Positions 6,603 through 31,510 of a DNA stretch of 64,000 nt are shown piece by piece (position 1 is the stretch's first letter; each line of letters opens with the position of its first letter). A model generated the notes under the pieces. That model made no database searches. It was given only the letters and a program-made list of their open reading frames with translations, and was not told where the DNA came from. A program made the position numbers and the translations under genes. The DNA is from Rosistilla oblonga (GTDB lineage: Bacteria; Planctomycetota; Planctomycetia; Pirellulales; Pirellulaceae), in the NCBI RefSeq assembly GCF_007751715.1, contig NZ_CP036292.1, positions 2,976,001-3,040,000 on the forward strand, written 5' to 3'.

Positions 6603-7538
6603 ATGAAAGACATCATTCTCACCGATCCGCTGCCAAAGTTCTTTTTGCCTCCCGCGCAGGTGCGATGTGAACTGCGCTATTTCGATTCGGCAACCGACGC
6701 CGACTTCGCCGCCGCTCGCGGTATCTTGGCGTACGGGCACGTCCGGATCGACGCCCCGATGATGGATCGTTGTCCCCAGTTGCGCGTGATCAGCAACCAT
6801 GGTGTTGGAGTCGATCATATCGATTTGCAGGCTGCCGCGGCGCGAGGTATTCCGGTCGGCAATACGCCCGGATGTGTCGACGCGGCGACCGCCGATCTGA
6901 CGATCGCCCTGATGTTGGCGACGGCGCGAAGGTTGGTCGTCAGCGATGCCTTTGCCCGCAGCGCGGAATTCACGCAATACAACCCAGCGATCTTGATCGG
7001 CCAAGAAGTGACCGGCAGCACGTTGGGAATCGTTGGAATGGGGCGGATCGGATGCGAAGTGGCGCGGCGAGCCAAAGCATTCCAAATGCGGCTGCTGTAT
7101 CACAACCGGTCCCGCCGTCCCGAAGCCGAAGCCGAGTTTGGCGCCGAGTACCGGTCGCTGGACGATCTGCTGCAAGAGTCCGATTTTGTTTCGCTGAACT
7201 GTCCGCTGACGGCGGAGACGACTGGTTTGATCGGCGCGGCGGAACTTGGAAAGATGAAGCCGACCGGGATCCTGTTGAATCTGGCTCGCGGTCAGGTCGT
7301 CGATACGCAGGCGTTATACGAAGCGCTCCGCGATGAAAAGATCCAAGCAGCGGGATTGGACGTCACCGATCCCGAACCGTTGCCCCGAGATCATCCGCTG
7401 TTGCAGTTGTCCAACGTGATCATCACGCCGCATCTGGGCAGCGCCACCGGCCGCACGCGTCACACGATGATGCAGCGAACGCTCGAAAACCTGTTCGCCG
7501 GCCTCGACGGTAAACCGCTGCCCAACGAAGTCAAATAG
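6603..7538 (+). CDS. D-2-hydroxyacid dehydrogenase (glyoxylate/hydroxypyruvate reductase-like)
   Basis: The 311-residue NAD(P)-dependent oxidoreductase has the nucleotide-binding GxGxxG as GMGRIG at 145-150. The catalytic triad regions are present: Arg in LNLARGQVVD, Glu in DVTDPEPLP and His in ITPHLGSATG. The substrate loop SNHGVGVDHID is typical of glyoxylate/hydroxypyruvate reductase or 2-ketogluconate reductase. An Arg or Lys after the nucleotide-binding beta strand (NRSRR) would favour NADP. It reduces 2-oxoacids to D-2-hydroxyacids in the cytoplasm. It is transcribed divergently from the M16 pair, with about 330 bases between the start codons. The exact substrate is not decidable from sequence. 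Confidence 0.92.
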   Translation: MKDIILTDPLPKFFLPPAQVRCELRYFDSATDADFAAARGILAYGHVRIDAPMMDRCPQLRVISNHGVGVDHIDLQAAAARGIPVGNTPGCVDAATADLTIALMLATARRLVVSDAFARSAEFTQYNPAILIGQEVTGSTLGIVGMGRIGCEVARRAKAFQMRLLYHNRSRRPEAEAEFGAEYRSLDDLLQESDFVSLNCPLTAETTGLIGAAELGKMKPTGILLNLARGQVVDTQALYEALRDEKIQAAGLDVTDPEPLPRDHPLLQLSNVIITPHLGSATGRTRHTMMQRTLENLFAGLDGKPLPNEVK

Positions 7539-8158
7539 CCGCTTCGGCTGCTTTGTCGATCTGGCTTTGGATACAAAGCGTCCTGGCGTTTTGATAGTTA
7601 AGGCGACGGGGAGTTATCGCGGCGATTGGCGGCGGCGCGACTTGGAATCGGTCCTCGAAGATCGCTAGCGACTGGTGCACTGCGGCAGCAAACGCATTTG
7701 CTGGCATTCTTTTCACGTCAAACAAGCTGATGCCAACGATGGCTGTCCGCGCGAGACGTGGCTCACGCAATCGTTCGTTAGCTGTCGCCGCATATGCTAG
7801 CGAATCGTATCGAGCGAAATCGCCAGTTGTCCATTTTACCTAAGAACAATGGGCCCGCGACGGCCGATATATCCAAAAGCATCGAGACGCGATCGCAGTG
7901 ACTTGCGATTCGCTAGCAACCGAGGTGGCGATTGCATCGGGCCGTGGCCCGACCGATGGCGAAGGAAGGGGATGTGGGCATTGCGCCCAACAAATGCGAA
8001 TGGCTGCCTTGCGGTATGCCAGGAACGCCCGCTCTACGCCGCGACACCACCTACGCTGCTGGTGATTGCCGATGCGGCGGCGAGCTGACGAAGCGGATCG
8101 TCCTCGTCGATATCCTTTGTGGGATCGTAACTGAGTTTGTATTGCTTCGAATTCATCA
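7539..8158. other. Intergenic stretch with no supported gene
   Basis: About 620 bases between the dehydrogenase and the DUF1207 gene. The short open frames here lack family resemblance and good ribosome sites. A small hairpin, AGCCGCTTCGGCT, lies directly after the dehydrogenase stop and could weakly terminate transcription, but the following T-tract is poor. I see no RNA gene. Confidence 0.5.
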
Positions 8159-22379: not shown

Positions 22380-23378
22380 ATGTCGTGGTTTCAACAATTG
22401 ACAGGGATCGACGAATCGTCGCCGCAGCAGGTGCGAGCGCAGTTGAGTGTCGATGGCGAGGATCTCGTCTGTCCCGATGGCACTCGCATCGCCTGCGGGC
22501 GGTTGGAAACGCCGACGCTAGTTGAACTGCGTGCGCGAGCCGCGGCGACGGACTCGCCCCGCGGACGTTTATCGCTTCGAGAGATCGTCGCCGATGTCCG
22601 CCGCTTGCATGCGGATCCGGGCAACGCCAACTCGCTCTTCCAAGTCGCGTCGCAATTTAATCTGTTGGAGATGGCTTCTCCCACGGTGACTCCCGAACGA
22701 GGTGTGGGGATCTACGAACACGACCACACACAAGGTCCCGCCTGCGCCGTCGCGTGTGGAGCGGGCACGATCTATCGCAACTACTTTGCAGCGGTGGGAG
22801 ATTGCGTCGGCCAATCGCGCGACCACCAGATCGATTGCAGCGCCGACCTCGGCCGGCTGCTGGGCAATCGCGAGCAGCAACTTTGGCGAATGCAAAACGG
22901 TTACCTCTTTCCGACCGATTCGGGGCTGCGTCAGATCAGCCGGACGTTGGAATCAGCCGCTGCCGGCGAACTCGACAGCTATCGCGACGCGTTGCGTATC
23001 GGGCTGCAATGGAACACGGCGGTGACGCTTGCGGGATCCAGCCACCGCGTCTCGCAAGCCTATTGTTCGGCGCTGCCGGTCGCTTACGGAAGCCAACCCG
23101 CGGCGGATTGGACAGCGTTTGCGAAACTGGTTCTAGAAGCTGCCTACGAAGCGACGTTGGCCGCAGCGGTCGTCAACCTCGCCGAAACCGGTTCGAACAA
23201 GCTCTACCTGACGCTGTTGGGAGGCGGAGTGTTCGGGAACCGGAACGAGTGGATCATTGCAGCCATCGAGCGCGCGGTCGCCAGCTACCGCGAAACCCCG
23301 TTGGATATCGCGATCGTCTCCTACGGCGCATCCCATCCCGCCGTAGCCGCCCTCGTCCAACAGTTTTCCAAATCGTAG
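22380..23378 (+). CDS. Uncharacterised protein, possibly macro-domain-like
   Basis: A 332-residue soluble protein. I do not firmly recognise it. The N-terminal ~75 residues hold a small beta-rich part (DGEDLVCPDGTRIACGRLE) and a helix. The middle has FNLLEMASPTVTPERGVGIY and GPACAVACGAGTIYRNYF. The end has LTLLGGGVFGNRNEWI, helices, and LDIAIVSYGASHPAVAAL. The glycine-rich loops after hydrophobic strands (CGAGTIYRN and LLGGGVFGN) resemble the two nucleotide-binding loops of macro domains, which bind ADP-ribose. That is an inference from pattern only. Its TAG stop lies inside the first copy of the downstream tagtggacgagg repeat. The neighbour, convergent, is the HIT/helicase fusion. Confidence 0.7.
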   Translation: MSWFQQLTGIDESSPQQVRAQLSVDGEDLVCPDGTRIACGRLETPTLVELRARAAATDSPRGRLSLREIVADVRRLHADPGNANSLFQVASQFNLLEMASPTVTPERGVGIYEHDHTQGPACAVACGAGTIYRNYFAAVGDCVGQSRDHQIDCSADLGRLLGNREQQLWRMQNGYLFPTDSGLRQISRTLESAAAGELDSYRDALRIGLQWNTAVTLAGSSHRVSQAYCSALPVAYGSQPAADWTAFAKLVLEAAYEATLAAAVVNLAETGSNKLYLTLLGGGVFGNRNEWIIAAIERAVASYRETPLDIAIVSYGASHPAVAALVQQFSKS

Positions 23379-23533
23379 TGGACGAGGCCACGAGTCCCCC
23401 CTCAAAACGATTCGTAGTGGACGAGGCAACGAGTCCCCTCAACAACAATGCCGCATCGCTATTCGTAGTCGACGAGGCCACGAGTCCCCTCAACACAAAA
23501 CGATTCGTAGTGGACGAGGTCACGAGTCCTCCC
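23374..23533. repeat. Four direct copies of the tagtggacgagg repeat
   Basis: Copies of CGTAGTGGACGAGGCCACGA begin near 23374, 23413, 23464 and 23506, spaced by 39-51 bases and separated by variable CCCCTCAA-type filler. The second, third and fourth copies each carry one or two substitutions (GGCAACG, TAGTCGACG and GGTCACG). The same core forms the perfect hairpin at 921-986. The first copy supplies the TAG stop of the upstream gene. Confidence 0.88.
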
Positions 23534-23646
23534 TCACCAAAACAAAGGAACCATCGGTCAACCAGTCGCACCGTTGATCTATCCGGTAGGGACCCAAACG
23601 CGTGCCGCAGCGGGAAATGATTGCTGCCGCGATCGCGTCAACGGTT

Positions 23647-26600
23647 TCAAGTTCCCTGCGCCGGATCGATGACGCAGATGAACTCGCCGATGACTCGTAG
23701 ATCCTCGGCATCTTCTGGCGTTATGTCGATTGGTTTGTAGTCGGGATTGAGTGGTTGCAGCTGGATCGTTGTGTGTTGCCAACCATCCTCGTCGACGCGC
23801 TTTGTCGAGTGGTAGCGTTTCACGGTGTATCGACCACCCTCCTCGGGATCGAGATGCGTGTTGACTTGCACCAGCAGGAGTTTACCTTCGCGCGTGCCGG
23901 GAGTGATCGGGCGGAACAAGCACCAAGCGTCGTTGGGAATGACAGGCTCCATCGAGTGGCCGATCACATGAGCGGCAAACATTCCCTTTTCCAGCCGCCG
24001 ATCGTCGACGGCGATCCAACCGATCTCTGCCGGGACACCCTCGGGGCCCCATTGCCCCGCAGCGACGGAAAGATCGTAGACCGGCGCGTGCGTGGTGAAT
24101 TTTTTGGGATCGGAAATCTCCGGCAAGATTTGCGGAATCTCCGAAGACTCCGTCGTGGCCGGTTCACTCGCATCTGTTGCTTCGACGTCGCATGGTGCTA
24201 CCGACCATCTTCCGTTCTGACTTTTGAACAGCACGCGGAAGTTGGTCCCTGGCAATCCGGCGTCGGGACCAAACCATGATTTCAATAACTCTCCCAATTG
24301 GTTCTTCGTCTCGCCTGCCGGTGCTGCAACGTTGCATGCGATCTTGACCATCTTAAATTCCCACATCGCTCCGTCGGGCAGCTGCATTGGCGTCGGGCCA
24401 ACAGGGCGGCCGGGGACCTTCGATTTGTCGGGCAGAAACAGGATGGGCCGTCCGCTGGCGTGCGAGACCTTGGCTTCGAATACGATGTGTTCTGGAGATT
24501 CGGTTGCAGTCAGACGTCGGCTCCGCGTATAGGCTGCAAGCCGCCAATCGACAAGTTCTTCCGTCATCGATTCGAGAGCAGCTCGCACGTGGACGGGACA
24601 GTCGATCGTCGTTTCAAATCGGTCGCCGGAGCGTTTGAACCAGACAGCGTTGTTTTGTGGTGCGAGCCAACGCGAGATCGGCCATTTGATCCACCACTTG
24701 GCCCACTCTTGATCGGTCGCCTTATCGTGATCGATCGCATGCTGCGTTCCCTCAAGATCGCGGCGGAGTACGTCGTGCCGCTGCATATACGAACGGCACT
24801 GTTTTGCAAAATCGAAGAGGTCGACACCCGCAAACAATTGACCGCTGTCCAGAAGGACTCTCAGCACAACCATCTTGTACGACTTGTTAAGGTTGGTCGT
24901 TTCGAGCGTCTTCAGCCAGTCGGTAAACCGCGATACGACTTCGGCTTCGTCGGGATCGAGGTCCTCTTCCGCATGAACAAATTCGAACCAGCTTCCCTCG
25001 GCGGCGCTGATCGCACGCGGCAGATAACCACGGCTGAACACCTCCATCGCCGTGGGGCGGCGTCCGAGTTCATCGCGAAGCCCCCGGTAGCCTTCGATCG
25101 CCGCGGTCCTTCCCTGAGGAAGAAACTCTTTGAGCATGTCCTTGGCATCGAGCTCAACATCCAACAGGCAACCTTCGGGCAGCTGGAGCGGTTTGCCGGC
25201 CAGCCAATCTCTGAGCGATTGCCATTGGTCACATCCCGATTGGAGCGACAATAGGTGGACGATGCGTTGAGCGAAGATGCGATGGTTGCCGACAAAATCG
25301 AGGACCAGCAGACGCGACTTCCCCTCGGCCGCGCGGAGCCCACGGCCCAGTTGTTGCAAGAAAATGATTTTTGATTCGGTGGGACGGAGCATCACGACGC
25401 GGTCGACCGCGGGAATGTCGAGTCCCTCGTTGAACATGTCGACAACACACAACGCTTGCAGCTTTCCATCACGCAGCTGGTCGAGCGATTCGCCGTAGGC
25501 ATCGCTCCCGTCGCCAGAAAAGACAGCCGCCGCCGATACTCCTTTTGTTCTCAGCCAATCACGTGCAAACAACGCGTGCCGTCGCGAGCAACAGAAGACC
25601 AGGGTCCGTTTGGCCGGATGGTTTTCCATCGCCAGCCAAAGTTTCTGCATCCGTTCGCTTTGCTCGACCTGCACCTCCAACTCTGCGACGTCGAAACGTC
25701 CGTTCCGCCACGGAATCTGACGAAAGTCGACGGTGTCTTTGATGCCGACGTAGTGGAACGGCACGAGTGCGTCTTCGGAAATCCCGTCGCCAATCGTCGC
25801 GTGATACGCCAAGTTGTCGTCGAAGATCGTCGCGACATCGACCCCGTCGGTTCGTTCCGGAGTGGCGGTCAAACCGAGCGCAAAATCGCAACGGATTTGG
25901 GCGAGAACTCGGCGATAGCTTGGGGCGTGCGCGTGGTGTACTTCGTCCATGATCAGGTAATCGAAATGCTCATCGGCCAGCCGCTGCAGTCCTTCGGGAC
26001 GCGACAGTTTCTGCACCGATGCGACAACCAGCTCTCCTGCAAGTTCGCTGCGGTCGCCGATGTACCAAGCCGTCGATCCCTCCGCGAAACGGTGGTCTAA
26101 CATTCGCGATACAACTGCTTCCGCTTGGGCCAATATGTGGGCCCGGTGGGCGACGATCAAAACTCGCGGCCGCCGCTTGATCGTCATTCCATATTGGCAG
26201 GCATCCAACGCGGCCAACCACGTCTTTCCCATTCCTGTCGCCACGGCGACGAGCGCTCGACGATGCCCGGCGGCGCGGATTTGGGCAAGCGACTTGAGCG
26301 CTTCCAGCTGCCATGGACGAGGGTTGGGAATTTCCTGTGCTTCGGGTTGGTTCGGGACAACGTGAGTTTGGTGGTACGTTTTTGCTGCCGCTGTATATTC
26401 GGTGACCGAGGCCGGCGTTAGCGGCGACGCGACATCCCACAGCGAATCGAATGCTTCCGAAAATTGGGTGTGCGACGTCGCCGGTTCCTTGGTGCTCGAC
26501 AACAGATTCCATTCGACACCAGTCAACAAGGCGGGCTTCGACAAGTTGCTGCTGCCAACGGAAATGAAGTCGCTCGCTCCTTCAACGATCCGCCAGGCCT

Positions 26601-27348
26601 TGGGATGAAACGATGCGGGCCTAGAGGAGAGCTTTGCCGTTTCGATCAGCTTGGCTTGCAGTTGGCCAGCTGGCACGCTTTCGGTCGCCAGGTCGCACCA
26701 TCCGAGCAGGGTGCGGAGTGCTCGCGGATCGGAGATGTAGAGATAATCGCTGACCAAGATCCGTACGACGGCTTGGTTTGCAATCGCCTCGAAAAGCCGT
26801 TCTTCAATGACTTCTAAACCAGACGACTGCACAAACGAGACGAGTACATCGACCGATTTGGCTGCAACGATTCGCCACGCTAGTTGGTCCCAGAGTGGCG
26901 ATTCGGGATAGCCAATGCTCAACGTGGGCCCCGAGTTCTCCTGGTCGTGGGCTTGAGAATCAGCTGGCGGTGCCAGGTAGTTCGCTTTGTCGGGAATGAC
27001 GTGTCGGACACCGCCACGGGGATCTTCGACGTCGCCCAGGTATCTTGGGATGACATGGATGTGAACGTGATCGACAGTCTGTCCCGATGCGGCTCCCGAA
27101 TTAAAACCTACGTTGTATCCATCGGGACGCGGGCGAAGCGTTTCGTCGAGCTTTTCTTTCACGACGTTGACGAGTTCCATCAGCGCGACTTGTTCTGCCG
27201 GTGTTGCATCAAACCACGTCGGCACCAGTCGACGTGTAACAACCAACGCATGCCCCGTCGCAACGGGATATCCATCGAAGATCGCAAACGCCAATGCATT
27301 GGCGGCGATCCAATCGGCTTGTGCGACTTGAAGGAACGGAGAGGTCAT
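23647..27348 (-). CDS. HIT - PLD nuclease - SF2 helicase - S24 peptidase fusion protein
   Basis: A 1233-residue multidomain protein. First a HIT domain (~10-125, triad H94-V-H96-I-H98), which in the family hydrolyses or transfers nucleotidyl groups. Second a phospholipase-D-type domain (~150-305, FHPKAW with H248 and K250, then GSSNLSKPAL), a probable nuclease or nucleic-acid-binding module. Third a superfamily 2 helicase (~340-690): Walker A ATGMGKT with K375, DEVHH at 468-472, GLTATP ~492, and motif VI QQLGRGLR ~665. Next a helical region (~700-1080) with FLPQGRTAAIEGYRGLRDEL. Last an S24/LexA-like peptidase (~1087-1230) with Ser1132 in GHSMEP and Lys1177 in YTVKRYH. All active residues are retained. 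It stands alone with no methylase or toxin nearby. A role in DNA repair or phage defence is inference. Confidence 0.92.
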   Translation of the reverse strand: MTSPFLQVAQADWIAANALAFAIFDGYPVATGHALVVTRRLVPTWFDATPAEQVALMELVNVVKEKLDETLRPRPDGYNVGFNSGAASGQTVDHVHIHVIPRYLGDVEDPRGGVRHVIPDKANYLAPPADSQAHDQENSGPTLSIGYPESPLWDQLAWRIVAAKSVDVLVSFVQSSGLEVIEERLFEAIANQAVVRILVSDYLYISDPRALRTLLGWCDLATESVPAGQLQAKLIETAKLSSRPASFHPKAWRIVEGASDFISVGSSNLSKPALLTGVEWNLLSSTKEPATSHTQFSEAFDSLWDVASPLTPASVTEYTAAAKTYHQTHVVPNQPEAQEIPNPRPWQLEALKSLAQIRAAGHRRALVAVATGMGKTWLAALDACQYGMTIKRRPRVLIVAHRAHILAQAEAVVSRMLDHRFAEGSTAWYIGDRSELAGELVVASVQKLSRPEGLQRLADEHFDYLIMDEVHHAHAPSYRRVLAQIRCDFALGLTATPERTDGVDVATIFDDNLAYHATIGDGISEDALVPFHYVGIKDTVDFRQIPWRNGRFDVAELEVQVEQSERMQKLWLAMENHPAKRTLVFCCSRRHALFARDWLRTKGVSAAAVFSGDGSDAYGESLDQLRDGKLQALCVVDMFNEGLDIPAVDRVVMLRPTESKIIFLQQLGRGLRAAEGKSRLLVLDFVGNHRIFAQRIVHLLSLQSGCDQWQSLRDWLAGKPLQLPEGCLLDVELDAKDMLKEFLPQGRTAAIEGYRGLRDELGRRPTAMEVFSRGYLPRAISAAEGSWFEFVHAEEDLDPDEAEVVSRFTDWLKTLETTNLNKSYKMVVLRVLLDSGQLFAGVDLFDFAKQCRSYMQRHDVLRRDLEGTQHAIDHDKATDQEWAKWWIKWPISRWLAPQNNAVWFKRSGDRFETTIDCPVHVRAALESMTEELVDWRLAAYTRSRRLTATESPEHIVFEAKVSHASGRPILFLPDKSKVPGRPVGPTPMQLPDGAMWEFKMVKIACNVAAPAGETKNQLGELLKSWFGPDAGLPGTNFRVLFKSQNGRWSVAPCDVEATDASEPATTESSEIPQILPEISDPKKFTTHAPVYDLSVAAGQWGPEGVPAEIGWIAVDDRRLEKGMFAAHVIGHSMEPVIPNDAWCLFRPITPGTREGKLLLVQVNTHLDPEEGGRYTVKRYHSTKRVDEDGWQHTTIQLQPLNPDYKPIDITPEDAEDLRVIGEFICVIDPAQGT

Positions 27349-28090
27349 CGTTGAATCAAAGCGGCATCCAAGAAGTGGAAGCCGAATGTGCAGGAAGGGG
27401 GCGAGCGAGAGAGAAGTGCGAGCGTGCTGAGCAGAGTAGGATCCTAACTATCGGACCCTACTCTTGTGTCATGCGATCCGCTACAGAACGTAGGCTCTGG
27501 AGACTCTGCGGTCAAGCTAGCCGACTGACAGTCGGCCATTGTGTCGACCTCCGGCCTGGGGCGGTTGGCATGTTAGTGACCGGTGGCTAATGCCACCGGC
27601 AGGTCGTGTGCCGGCCTCTGGCCTCCGCGCGGTTGGTTGTTGGTGGGGGCGGTCTTGCTTGTCGAGATGACGCGTGCTGGAATTTGGACTTGGGAATGGT
27701 TTGGCTGTGGGATGCCAGTGGCTTATGATACCGGCAGTGGGGGTGGCGGCCTTTGGGCTTGCGGGGCGAGTATCTGTTGGTCGGTGGCTTTAGGCCGGAG
27801 GCCGGTAAAGGACCTGCCGGTGGTGTAAACCACCGGAACGAATCCTCGTGCGGAAAACACAAGGCCGAAGGCCGGCACAGGTTTTTGTGTCGGCCTCCGG
27901 CCTTTAAGAAGGCAGGTTGTTTTGCGGTGACCGGTGGCTTATCCCACCGGCAGGTCGTGTGTCGGCCTTCGGCCTTTTTTACGGCGCGTTGGGAGGCGGT
28001 TCTGCCTATAGAAATGAGGCGTGCCGGGCGTCGGCCTCAGCGCTGTGGGGCGATGAGGCGGAGGGGCAGCATTGGAGCCGCGGGGGCTGT
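27349..28090. repeat. Intergenic stretch rich in hairpin-repeat units
   Basis: No gene is supported in these 740 bases. From about 27570 to 28010 there are degenerate copies of the GGTGGCTTATCCCACCGGCA / CCGGTGGTGTAAACCACCGG hairpin and of the AGGCCGGAGGCCGG box with its inverted partner GGCCTCCGGCCT. The clearest are near 27815-27836 and 27870-27905. They belong to the same family as the larger arrays at 30.3-31.5 and 43.2-44.0 kb, but are more diverged. Confidence 0.75.
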
Positions 28091-30334: not shown

Positions 30335-31510
30335 TTTGCATCACCGGTGGTTTACACCACCGGCATTAGGTGTGCCGCCCTCCGGGCTCAGGAGGTATTT
30401 AGTCGGGTAGAAGTACCGGTGGTTTACACCACCGGCATTGGGTTTGCCGCCCGCCGGGCTCCGGATTTAGTGGGCGAGTTTCTTCATCGGTCATTGATCG
30501 GTTGTCCTCAGGCCGGAGGCCGACACATTCCCTGCCGGTGGTGTAAACCACCGGATCGAAGCACCAGCAAAAAACACCAGGCCGGAGGCCGGCAGATGTT
30601 TGTGTCGGCCTCCGGCCTTTGATGCCGCGGGGCTCTGCGGCACCGGTGGTTTACACCACCGGCATTAGGTGTGCCGCCCTCCGGGCTCCGGAGATAGTAG
30701 GCGCGAGATAATGCATTGGGAGTCCTCAGGCCGGAGGCCGACACATTCCCTGCCGGTGGTGTAAACCACCGGAATGATGCCCTAGCAAAGAACACCAGGC
30801 CGGAGGCCGGCAGATGTTTGTGTCGGCCTCCGGCCTTTGTGCAGCGCGGCTCAGCGGCACCGGTGGTTTACACCACCGGCATTGGATGTGGCGCCCTCCG
30901 GGCTCGGGAGATCTTTGGTCGGGTAGAAGTACCGGTGGTTTACACCACCGGCATTAGGTGTGCCGCCCTCCGGGCTCCGGAGATAGTAGGCGCGAGATAA
31001 TGCATTGGGAGTCCTCAGGCCGGAGGCCGACACATTCCCTGCCGGTGGTGTAAACCACCGGAATGATGCACTAGCAAAAAGCAGGAGGCTGGAGGCCGGC
31101 AGATGTTTGTGTCGGCCTCCGGCCTTTGATGTCGCGCTGCGCTGCGGTACCGGTGGTTTACACCACCGGCATTGGGTGTGCCGCCCTCCGGGCTCCGGAA
31201 ATTTTAGGCGCGAGGTAATGCATTGGGAGTTTTCAGGCCGGAGGCCGACACATTCTCTGCCGGTGGTGTAAACCACCGGAATGAAGCACCAGAAGAAACA
31301 CCAGGCCGGAGGCCGGCAGATGTTTGTGTCGGCCTCCGGCCTTTGATGTCGCGCTGCGCTGCGGCACCGGTGGTTTACACCACCGGCATTAGGTATGCCG
31401 CCCTCCGGGCTCAGGAGATCGCTGGCCGGGTTGAAGCACTCCGGTGGTTTACAGCACCGGTGTTAGATGTGGCGCCCTCCGGGCTCAGGGGTCGGAGAGC
31501 TCACATTTTG
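30335..31510. repeat. Large mosaic hairpin-repeat array
   Basis: About 1.2 kb made almost wholly of three boxes. Box A is CCGGTGGTTTACACCACCGG plus a CATTAGGTGTGCCGCCCTCC tail, at about 30344, 30416, 30643, 30860, 30932, 31150, 31367 and a degenerate 31441. Box B is the same stem with the loop inverted (GTAA), preceded by AGGCCGGAGGCCGACACATT, at about 30534, 30753, 31042 and 31260. Box C is an inverted pair of AGGCCGGAGGCCGGCA around a short loop. The order is A A B C A B C A A B C A B C A A. Open frames through it are repeat-encoded and not genes. Confidence 0.92.

Follow-up and report, generated by a model that had tools for sequence, protein, structure and literature searches.

Can a restriction enzyme carry its own damage-controlled switch? 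This question is raised by a gene in a 64,000-nucleotide stretch of the Rosistilla oblonga genome (contig NZ_CP036292.1, positions 2,976,001 to 3,040,000), hereafter called the window. As the initial annotation had proposed, a single open reading frame (ORF) of 1233 residues carries HIT, PLD-nuclease, SF2-motor and S24-peptidase parts. In this study, we found that the core of the protein resembles the type IV restriction enzyme SauUSI, and that its LexA-like S24 domain is a portable module carried by many restriction and defence enzymes, which is the surprising part of the finding. We consider it possible, with a probability of about 0.4, that the protein is a restriction enzyme on the SauUSI plan with a RecA-triggered, self-cleaving S24 fuse that would turn the nuclease off upon damage to the host DNA.

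The LexA-like S24 module

The C-terminal segment was confirmed as S24-like by profile search (Pfam Peptidase_S24 at residues 1089-1223, E 4.6e-9, over the curated cut-off). It has the LexA fold, a Ser-Lys pair (S1132 and K1177) and an Ala-Gly site, A1097-G1098, 35 residues before the Ser. The C-terminal S24 domains of LexA, UmuD and CI share this fold, Ser-Lys pair, Ala-Gly site and 35-residue spacing. In contrast to these, the carrier here is a nuclease and not a repressor or polymerase factor, and the module forms its own S24 subfamily.

The key residues named by the initial annotation were all located, namely HVHIH at 94-98, HPK at 248-250, GKT at 374-376, DEVH from 468, S1132 and K1177. 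Conservation was examined in an alignment of 20 proteins with the same architecture as the window protein. H94, H96, H98, H248, K250, G374, K375, D468, E469, H471, S1132 and K1177 were invariant in 20/20, which argues against chance. A1097 was present in all 20 and G1098 in 18, with Ser in the other two. The S24 and PLD parts were similarly conserved (mean entropy of 1.09 and 1.14 bits), whereas none of the 27 linker positions 1062-1088 was invariant (mean entropy of 2.25 bits).

We also compared 36 distinct S24 modules chosen by similarity to the window module, with partial modules excluded. Ala at P1, Ser and Lys were each found in 36/36 and belong to only 12 invariant positions of 138; Ala was at P2 in 34/36. 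A simple motif script placed the Ser 35 residues from P1 in 24 modules, 36-40 in eight, 48 in one and 65 in one, and left two unparsed.

Could the S24 fold act without cleavage, as a dimerisation or RecA/single-stranded DNA docking domain that assembles the enzyme? LexA C-terminal domains dimerise, and self-cleavage here is a prediction. SauUSI is likewise active as a dimer, according to the available part of its description (PMC7913695). However, pure docking would not need an invariant Ser, Lys and P1 Ala, and we regard this explanation as unlikely. A peptidase that cuts another protein, such as a regulator, instead of itself would be compatible with the sequence. This is very improbable, since a same-chain Ala-Gly site at the LexA spacing is conserved together with the catalytic pair.

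Relationship to SauUSI and other known systems

The best PADLOC match was the type IV restriction model mREase_IV (residues 156-740, E 4e-91). The best PDB relative by sequence was SauUSI 7clg (residues 170-697, E 2e-68), which was also the top Foldseek match, at a root-mean-square deviation of 21.9 Å because domain placement differs. The long model had a predicted template modelling score of 0.54, and the relative placement of its domains was not interpreted. SauUSI was not among its best 50 VIA-align matches, which were motor domains; the SauUSI assignment rests on sequence and Foldseek.

SauUSI in the strict sense is a type IV enzyme whose cleavage is confined to methylated or hydroxymethylated DNA. 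This shredder of foreign DNA from Staphylococcus aureus has a PLD domain with an HxK motif, an SF2 motor and a helical coupler, and the window protein has an N-terminal PLD nuclease with HxK, an SF2 ATPase and a coupler in the same order. The SauUSI HxK, His119/Lys121, is equivalent to HPK 248-250 (PMC7913695, available part). Unlike SauUSI, the window protein has a HIT domain in front and B3-like and S24 domains behind, with no detected SRA domain. The SRA-type recognition domain (DUF3427) gave no Pfam match up to E 1 in the window protein, and the recognition part of paralogue L002 gave no blastp match at 1e-4. Because the SRA domain is absent, the protein is a variant of SauUSI-like restriction enzymes and not a strict member. 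The one-contig 7.25 Mb genome also encodes, 88 kb from the gene, another SauUSI-like protein of more usual make-up (1051 residues, with DUF3427).

Both motor domains scored over their curated Pfam cut-offs (ResIII at 342-499, E 5e-31; Helicase_C at 568-673, E 1e-11). The PLDc_2 match at 164-304 (E 7e-4, 19.8 bits) was under its cut-off of 27, which was passed by two of the four relatives scanned (L077, 33.8 bits; L142, 37.4 bits) and failed by the others (L009, 25.6; L075, 18.0). The PLD part is supported because the type IV match spans 156-740, the SauUSI match spans 170-697 and two relatives pass PLDc_2. The HIT domain has the HIT motif with its three histidines. A B3-like DNA-binding domain is probably present at about residues 953-1056. 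All parts listed by the initial annotation were found; the probable B3-like domain and the LexA-like A1097-G1098 site had been missed.

The protein could instead be a DNA-repair helicase-nuclease, RadD-like and with an aprataxin-like, end-cleaning HIT domain. RadD has the motor domain fold in common with the window protein; RadD itself lacks PLD, HIT and S24 domains. The NCBIfam RadD model scored 85.1 bits, far under its cut-off of 720, and type IV restriction models score far higher across the PLD and motor parts. The patchy presence and several decayed copies described below are also unlike a repair gene. This reading is improbable. As for the NgoAVII and CglI restriction enzymes, those have two subunits, whereas the window protein is one chain with HIT and S24 in addition.

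Relatives and their architectures

Architectures were assigned by matching pieces of the window protein to ORFs of fetched loci (L numbers). Architecture A, HIT-PLD-SF2-coupler-B3-like-S24, is that of the window protein and its Pirellulales relatives. By our reading of the match rows, it occurred in 14/297 genomes of the class. Among these 14, an internal stop interrupts one copy, a contig end truncates another and the match is split in two more; a further four genomes had fragments only. Architecture B adds an S24 of divergent sequence to these parts, together with an additional stretch at the C-terminus (L032, L033, L035). Architecture C ends in S24-DUF3427 behind the same HIT-PLD-SF2-coupler-B3-like series (L037/L077), with an S24 under the Pfam cut-off. 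Architecture D has the same series followed by DUF3427 (L094/L142, the same gene; L095), and architecture E is the ordinary PLD-SF2-DUF3427. In the divergent S24 of B and C, the Ser and Lys are retained, and the Ser is preceded at a distance of 36-40 residues by Ala-Gly or Cys-Gly. In a quick tree of the motor, the 24 rows of A formed a single clade with support 100, apart from E.

Split or fragmented copies were seen at L020, L021, L025, L026/L098, L027/L097 and L107; some may be assembly errors, and such copies are often seen in restriction genes. At L023 (6537-11100), a SauUSI-like and an S24-bearing gene lie head to head, both lacking their 5' halves, as after a deletion.

The S24 module on other enzymes

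A profile built from 22 S24 modules was searched in 294 planctomycete genomes at E 1e-20. The module was found at 20 places in 16 genomes. Sixteen of these places were restriction or defence enzymes, two were proteins without another Pfam domain and two were contig-end fragments. Three carriers were SauUSI-like (the window protein, and G209 and G214 by blastp). Eight were type I HsdR (L061, L065 and L068 by Pfam, L070, L135 and L136, and L062 and L063 by similarity to L061), with HsdS genes adjoining L068, L136 and L135. One was type IIG (L066) and one was type III (L069, PADLOC E 4e-229, adjoining a methylase). Three were Druantia-DruE-like (L064, PADLOC E 2e-114; L071 and L080 by helicase and MZB domains). 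These results show that the S24 subfamily is a portable module on unrelated restriction and defence enzymes. In a short, quick S24 tree, the five C-terminal HsdR copies needed four changes, of which branches with good support require two. Movement of the module between enzymes would give such a pattern.

Outside this sample, the module was found at the end of a Schlafen group 3 helicase (L148) and of an HsdR on a viral contig (L133, the one match among viral contigs). A mobile origin was considered and not adopted. The search of plasmids with the window S24 gave two records (Halomonas, 41.8%; Streptococcus agalactiae, 29.1%), and that with the S24 of another carrier gave one. On the Halomonas plasmid (L112), the module is frame-shifted beside a similar ORF. 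Phages gave no match with the S24 of L068, the only query used, and genome contigs were scanned once, with the whole protein as query. No description of such S24 fusions was found in openly licensed PMC papers, a search that is no proof of absence; the terms S24 and HIT domain had 0 occurrences in the available parts of PMC12839542 and PMC7159879.

Other features of the carriers were also observed. The two carriers without another Pfam domain, L067 (1519-3306, 596 residues, preceded by an ORF with Helicase_C) and L137 (6470-8056, 529 residues), are candidate new defence genes. At L148 (3461-10885), the Schlafen group 3 helicase and a HIT-PLD-SF2-S24 gene, both S24-bearing, lie 1.1 kb apart. 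At L061 (3-4737) and L063 (616-4936), the S24-HsdR gene starts at the end of a sigma-54 activator gene on the same strand.

A RecA-responsive, LexA-descended, self-cleaving fuse may have been fitted repeatedly to unrelated immune nucleases, here type I, IIG, III and SauUSI-like restriction enzymes and Druantia-like and Schlafen-like helicases, coupling immunity to host DNA damage. We advance this wider reading tentatively, with more reserve than that for the window protein.

A model of a damage-responsive off-switch

LexA-like proteins cut themselves when bound to the RecA filament, and ClpXP degrons adjoin the cut (PMC5742171, citing Neher et al. 2003). Restriction alleviation induced by damage is an established phenomenon for the type I enzymes of E. 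coli, in which ClpXP removes HsdR (PMC4231737 and PMC11109961). RecA, ClpX and LexA are all encoded in the genome of R. oblonga, where the only Peptidase_S24 matches are LexA and the window protein.

In the model we prefer, the protein would be an ATP-driven restriction enzyme that would translocate by its SF2 motor and cut with dimerised PLD domains; its DNA target is probably chosen by the B3-like domain. The N-terminal HIT domain may serve as an accessory enzyme acting on nucleotides, from a subfamily associated with nucleases. A break in the host chromosome, for example one made by the enzyme itself, would lead to a RecA filament, upon which the S24 module would cleave its own A1097-G1098 bond. 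This would release HIT-PLD-SF2-B3 as one piece whose new C-terminus ends in VAA. Such an end resembles the C-degron exposed by LexA for ClpXP, by which the nuclease would be cleared. The enzyme would in effect carry its own means of restriction alleviation, similar to ClpXP-dependent EcoKI alleviation in that a DNA-translocating nuclease is shut down temporarily and the host is protected. The domains, key residues, fold, conservation and spread of the module are observations, whereas we infer the cleavage, RecA as its trigger, the degradation and the off direction. The earlier functional interpretation is partly supported.

The same anatomy, with a flexible hypervariable linker ahead of the cleavage site, could also make an on-switch. 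The S24 module would then keep the nuclease inactive until RecA-triggered self-cleavage freed it, so that damage or phage would arm DNA degradation (abortive infection). The occurrence of S24 at either end of enzymes is expected of an inhibitory cap. However, a SauUSI-type enzyme has a recognition domain that controls it, and if damage to the host armed the enzyme, the host's own chromosome would be destroyed. Relatives that lack S24 are complete in other respects, and the new VAA end resembles a degron. We find the on-switch unlikely, though the foremost of the alternatives. The off-switch is favoured because ClpXP degrons adjoin LexA-type cuts, the cut would leave VAA and type I alleviation through ClpXP is established.

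Several observations weigh against the off-switch. In EcoKI, alleviation is due to ClpXP acting on translocating HsdR, a protein with no reported S24 module whose recognition depends on translocation (PMC4231737); the authors also argue against a general SOS response. In the type I HsdR of L061-L063, S24 is N-terminal (residues 75-222 of 927-940), and cleavage would not put a degron on the nuclease. Cleavage may have another consequence in these three, or the module may act without a degron. HIT-bearing relatives without S24 occur (architecture D), Ala-Ser replaces Ala-Gly in 3/36 modules, and a sequence search of the PDB with the module profile gave no match at E 0.01. None of the palindromes upstream of lexA was seen upstream of the window gene, in a look too crude to decide on SOS control.

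Features of the gene and the HIT domain

Table 1. Parts of the window gene, with positions counted from the first letter of the window.
Feature	Residues	Position	Strand	Basis
Whole gene: HIT, PLD nuclease, SF2 motor, coupler, B3-like domain, LexA/S24 module		23647..27348	minus	1233 residues, ATG start
HIT domain	10-103	27040..27321	minus	Pfam HIT E 1.3e-18, over curated cut-off
HIT motif HVHIH	94-98	27055..27069	minus	Three His in 20/20 same-architecture and 7/7 more distant HIT-bearing proteins
PLD-type nuclease domain	164-304	26437..26859	minus	PLDc_2 under cut-off; SauUSI family match starts at residue 156
HPK (HxK) nuclease motif	248-250	26599..26607	minus	20/20 same-architecture proteins
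SF2 ATPase/translocase	342-673	25330..26325	minus	ResIII and Helicase_C; RadD/SauUSI folds
Helical coupler region	701-930 (approximate limits)	24559..25248	minus	SauUSI-like position; helical in model; no Pfam family
Probable B3-like DNA-binding (target recognition) domain	~953-1056	24181..24492	minus	
Hypervariable linker	1062-1086	24091..24165	minus	Entropy in alignment
LexA-like S24 module	1087-1229	23662..24090	minus	
Predicted scissile bond	A1097-G1098	24055..24060	minus	Ala 36/36; Gly 33/36, Ser 3/36 distinct modules
Predicted nucleophile	S1132	23953..23955	minus	36/36 distinct modules
Predicted general base	K1177	23818..23820	minus	36/36 distinct modules

A HIT domain ending in DPRGGVR is common to the window protein and to free-standing HIT proteins that adjoin an HNH endonuclease gene. 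The HIT-HNH pair was present in 4/6 plasmid loci inspected, being annotated in three and recognised in the fourth (Persicobacter) because one protein is 67% identical to the HNH protein of Hymenobacter. Two planctomycete loci, L072 and L074, have the pair as well. In Hymenobacter, a transposase comes after the pair, and then a MutT-type gene and a PLD-helicase. These results suggest that the HIT domain belongs to a nuclease-linked HIT subfamily. The two-gene unit itself (L110 6984-8369, L162 6974-8441, L163 7004-8376, L165 5975-7363, L072 and L074) is spread over Bacteroidota, Betaproteobacteria and planctomycetes and looks like a small defence unit.

Genomic surroundings

An ordinary SauUSI-like gene lay within 6 kb in 4/20 A-type loci (L009, L016, L023, L145) and adjoined one B-type gene (L075). 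In the class sample, such a gene was found in at least 3/14 A-type genomes (G000, G379, G420) and at least 16/283 others, counting rows that reach the PLD part; these are lower bounds because two candidates per genome were scored. A fixed operon is not claimed, as conserved neighbours are few and the nearby SauUSI-like paralogue occurs in differing orientations.

Homologues were checked for defence islands. Within 5 kb of A-type genes at 20 loci, 90 of the 107 nearest ORFs matched 75 PADLOC families at 1e-20, compared with 13 families for 90 of 172 ORFs from 19 stretches of the window's genome. The matches exceed the control, but these figures count families and not ORFs, the control is one genome, and the 75 are too high a figure because PD-T4-6 kinases (3 members) account for many alternative models of the same kind. 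The solid matches were mREase_IV (3 members) and HmaA, PDC-S41 and DrmD (1 each), and the window gene's own neighbours are ordinary (short-chain dehydrogenase).

The convergent neighbour at 22380-23378 has no Pfam match at 1e-3, and L009 has a relative of it (6971-7981) close to the corresponding gene. Intergenic direct repeats occur at 23371-23543, 27576-27975 and 30342-31499, with four 41-nucleotide copies, three of 49 nucleotides and longer copies of 134-289 nucleotides with up to 93% identity. An imperfect inverted repeat at 27434-27463, about 90 nucleotides upstream of the start codon, is a possible operator.

Significance

Immune enzymes that cut DNA endanger their own host, and what is known of their shut-off upon damage comes mainly from the type I enzymes of E. 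coli. If our reading is true, a LexA-like module fused directly to many such enzymes would be a simple and general answer. The module would also be a sequence handle for finding defence proteins, as with the two carriers that have no other Pfam domain. The presence of the same S24 domain on several unrelated kinds of restriction and defence enzymes suggests a shared switch by which DNA damage controls them.

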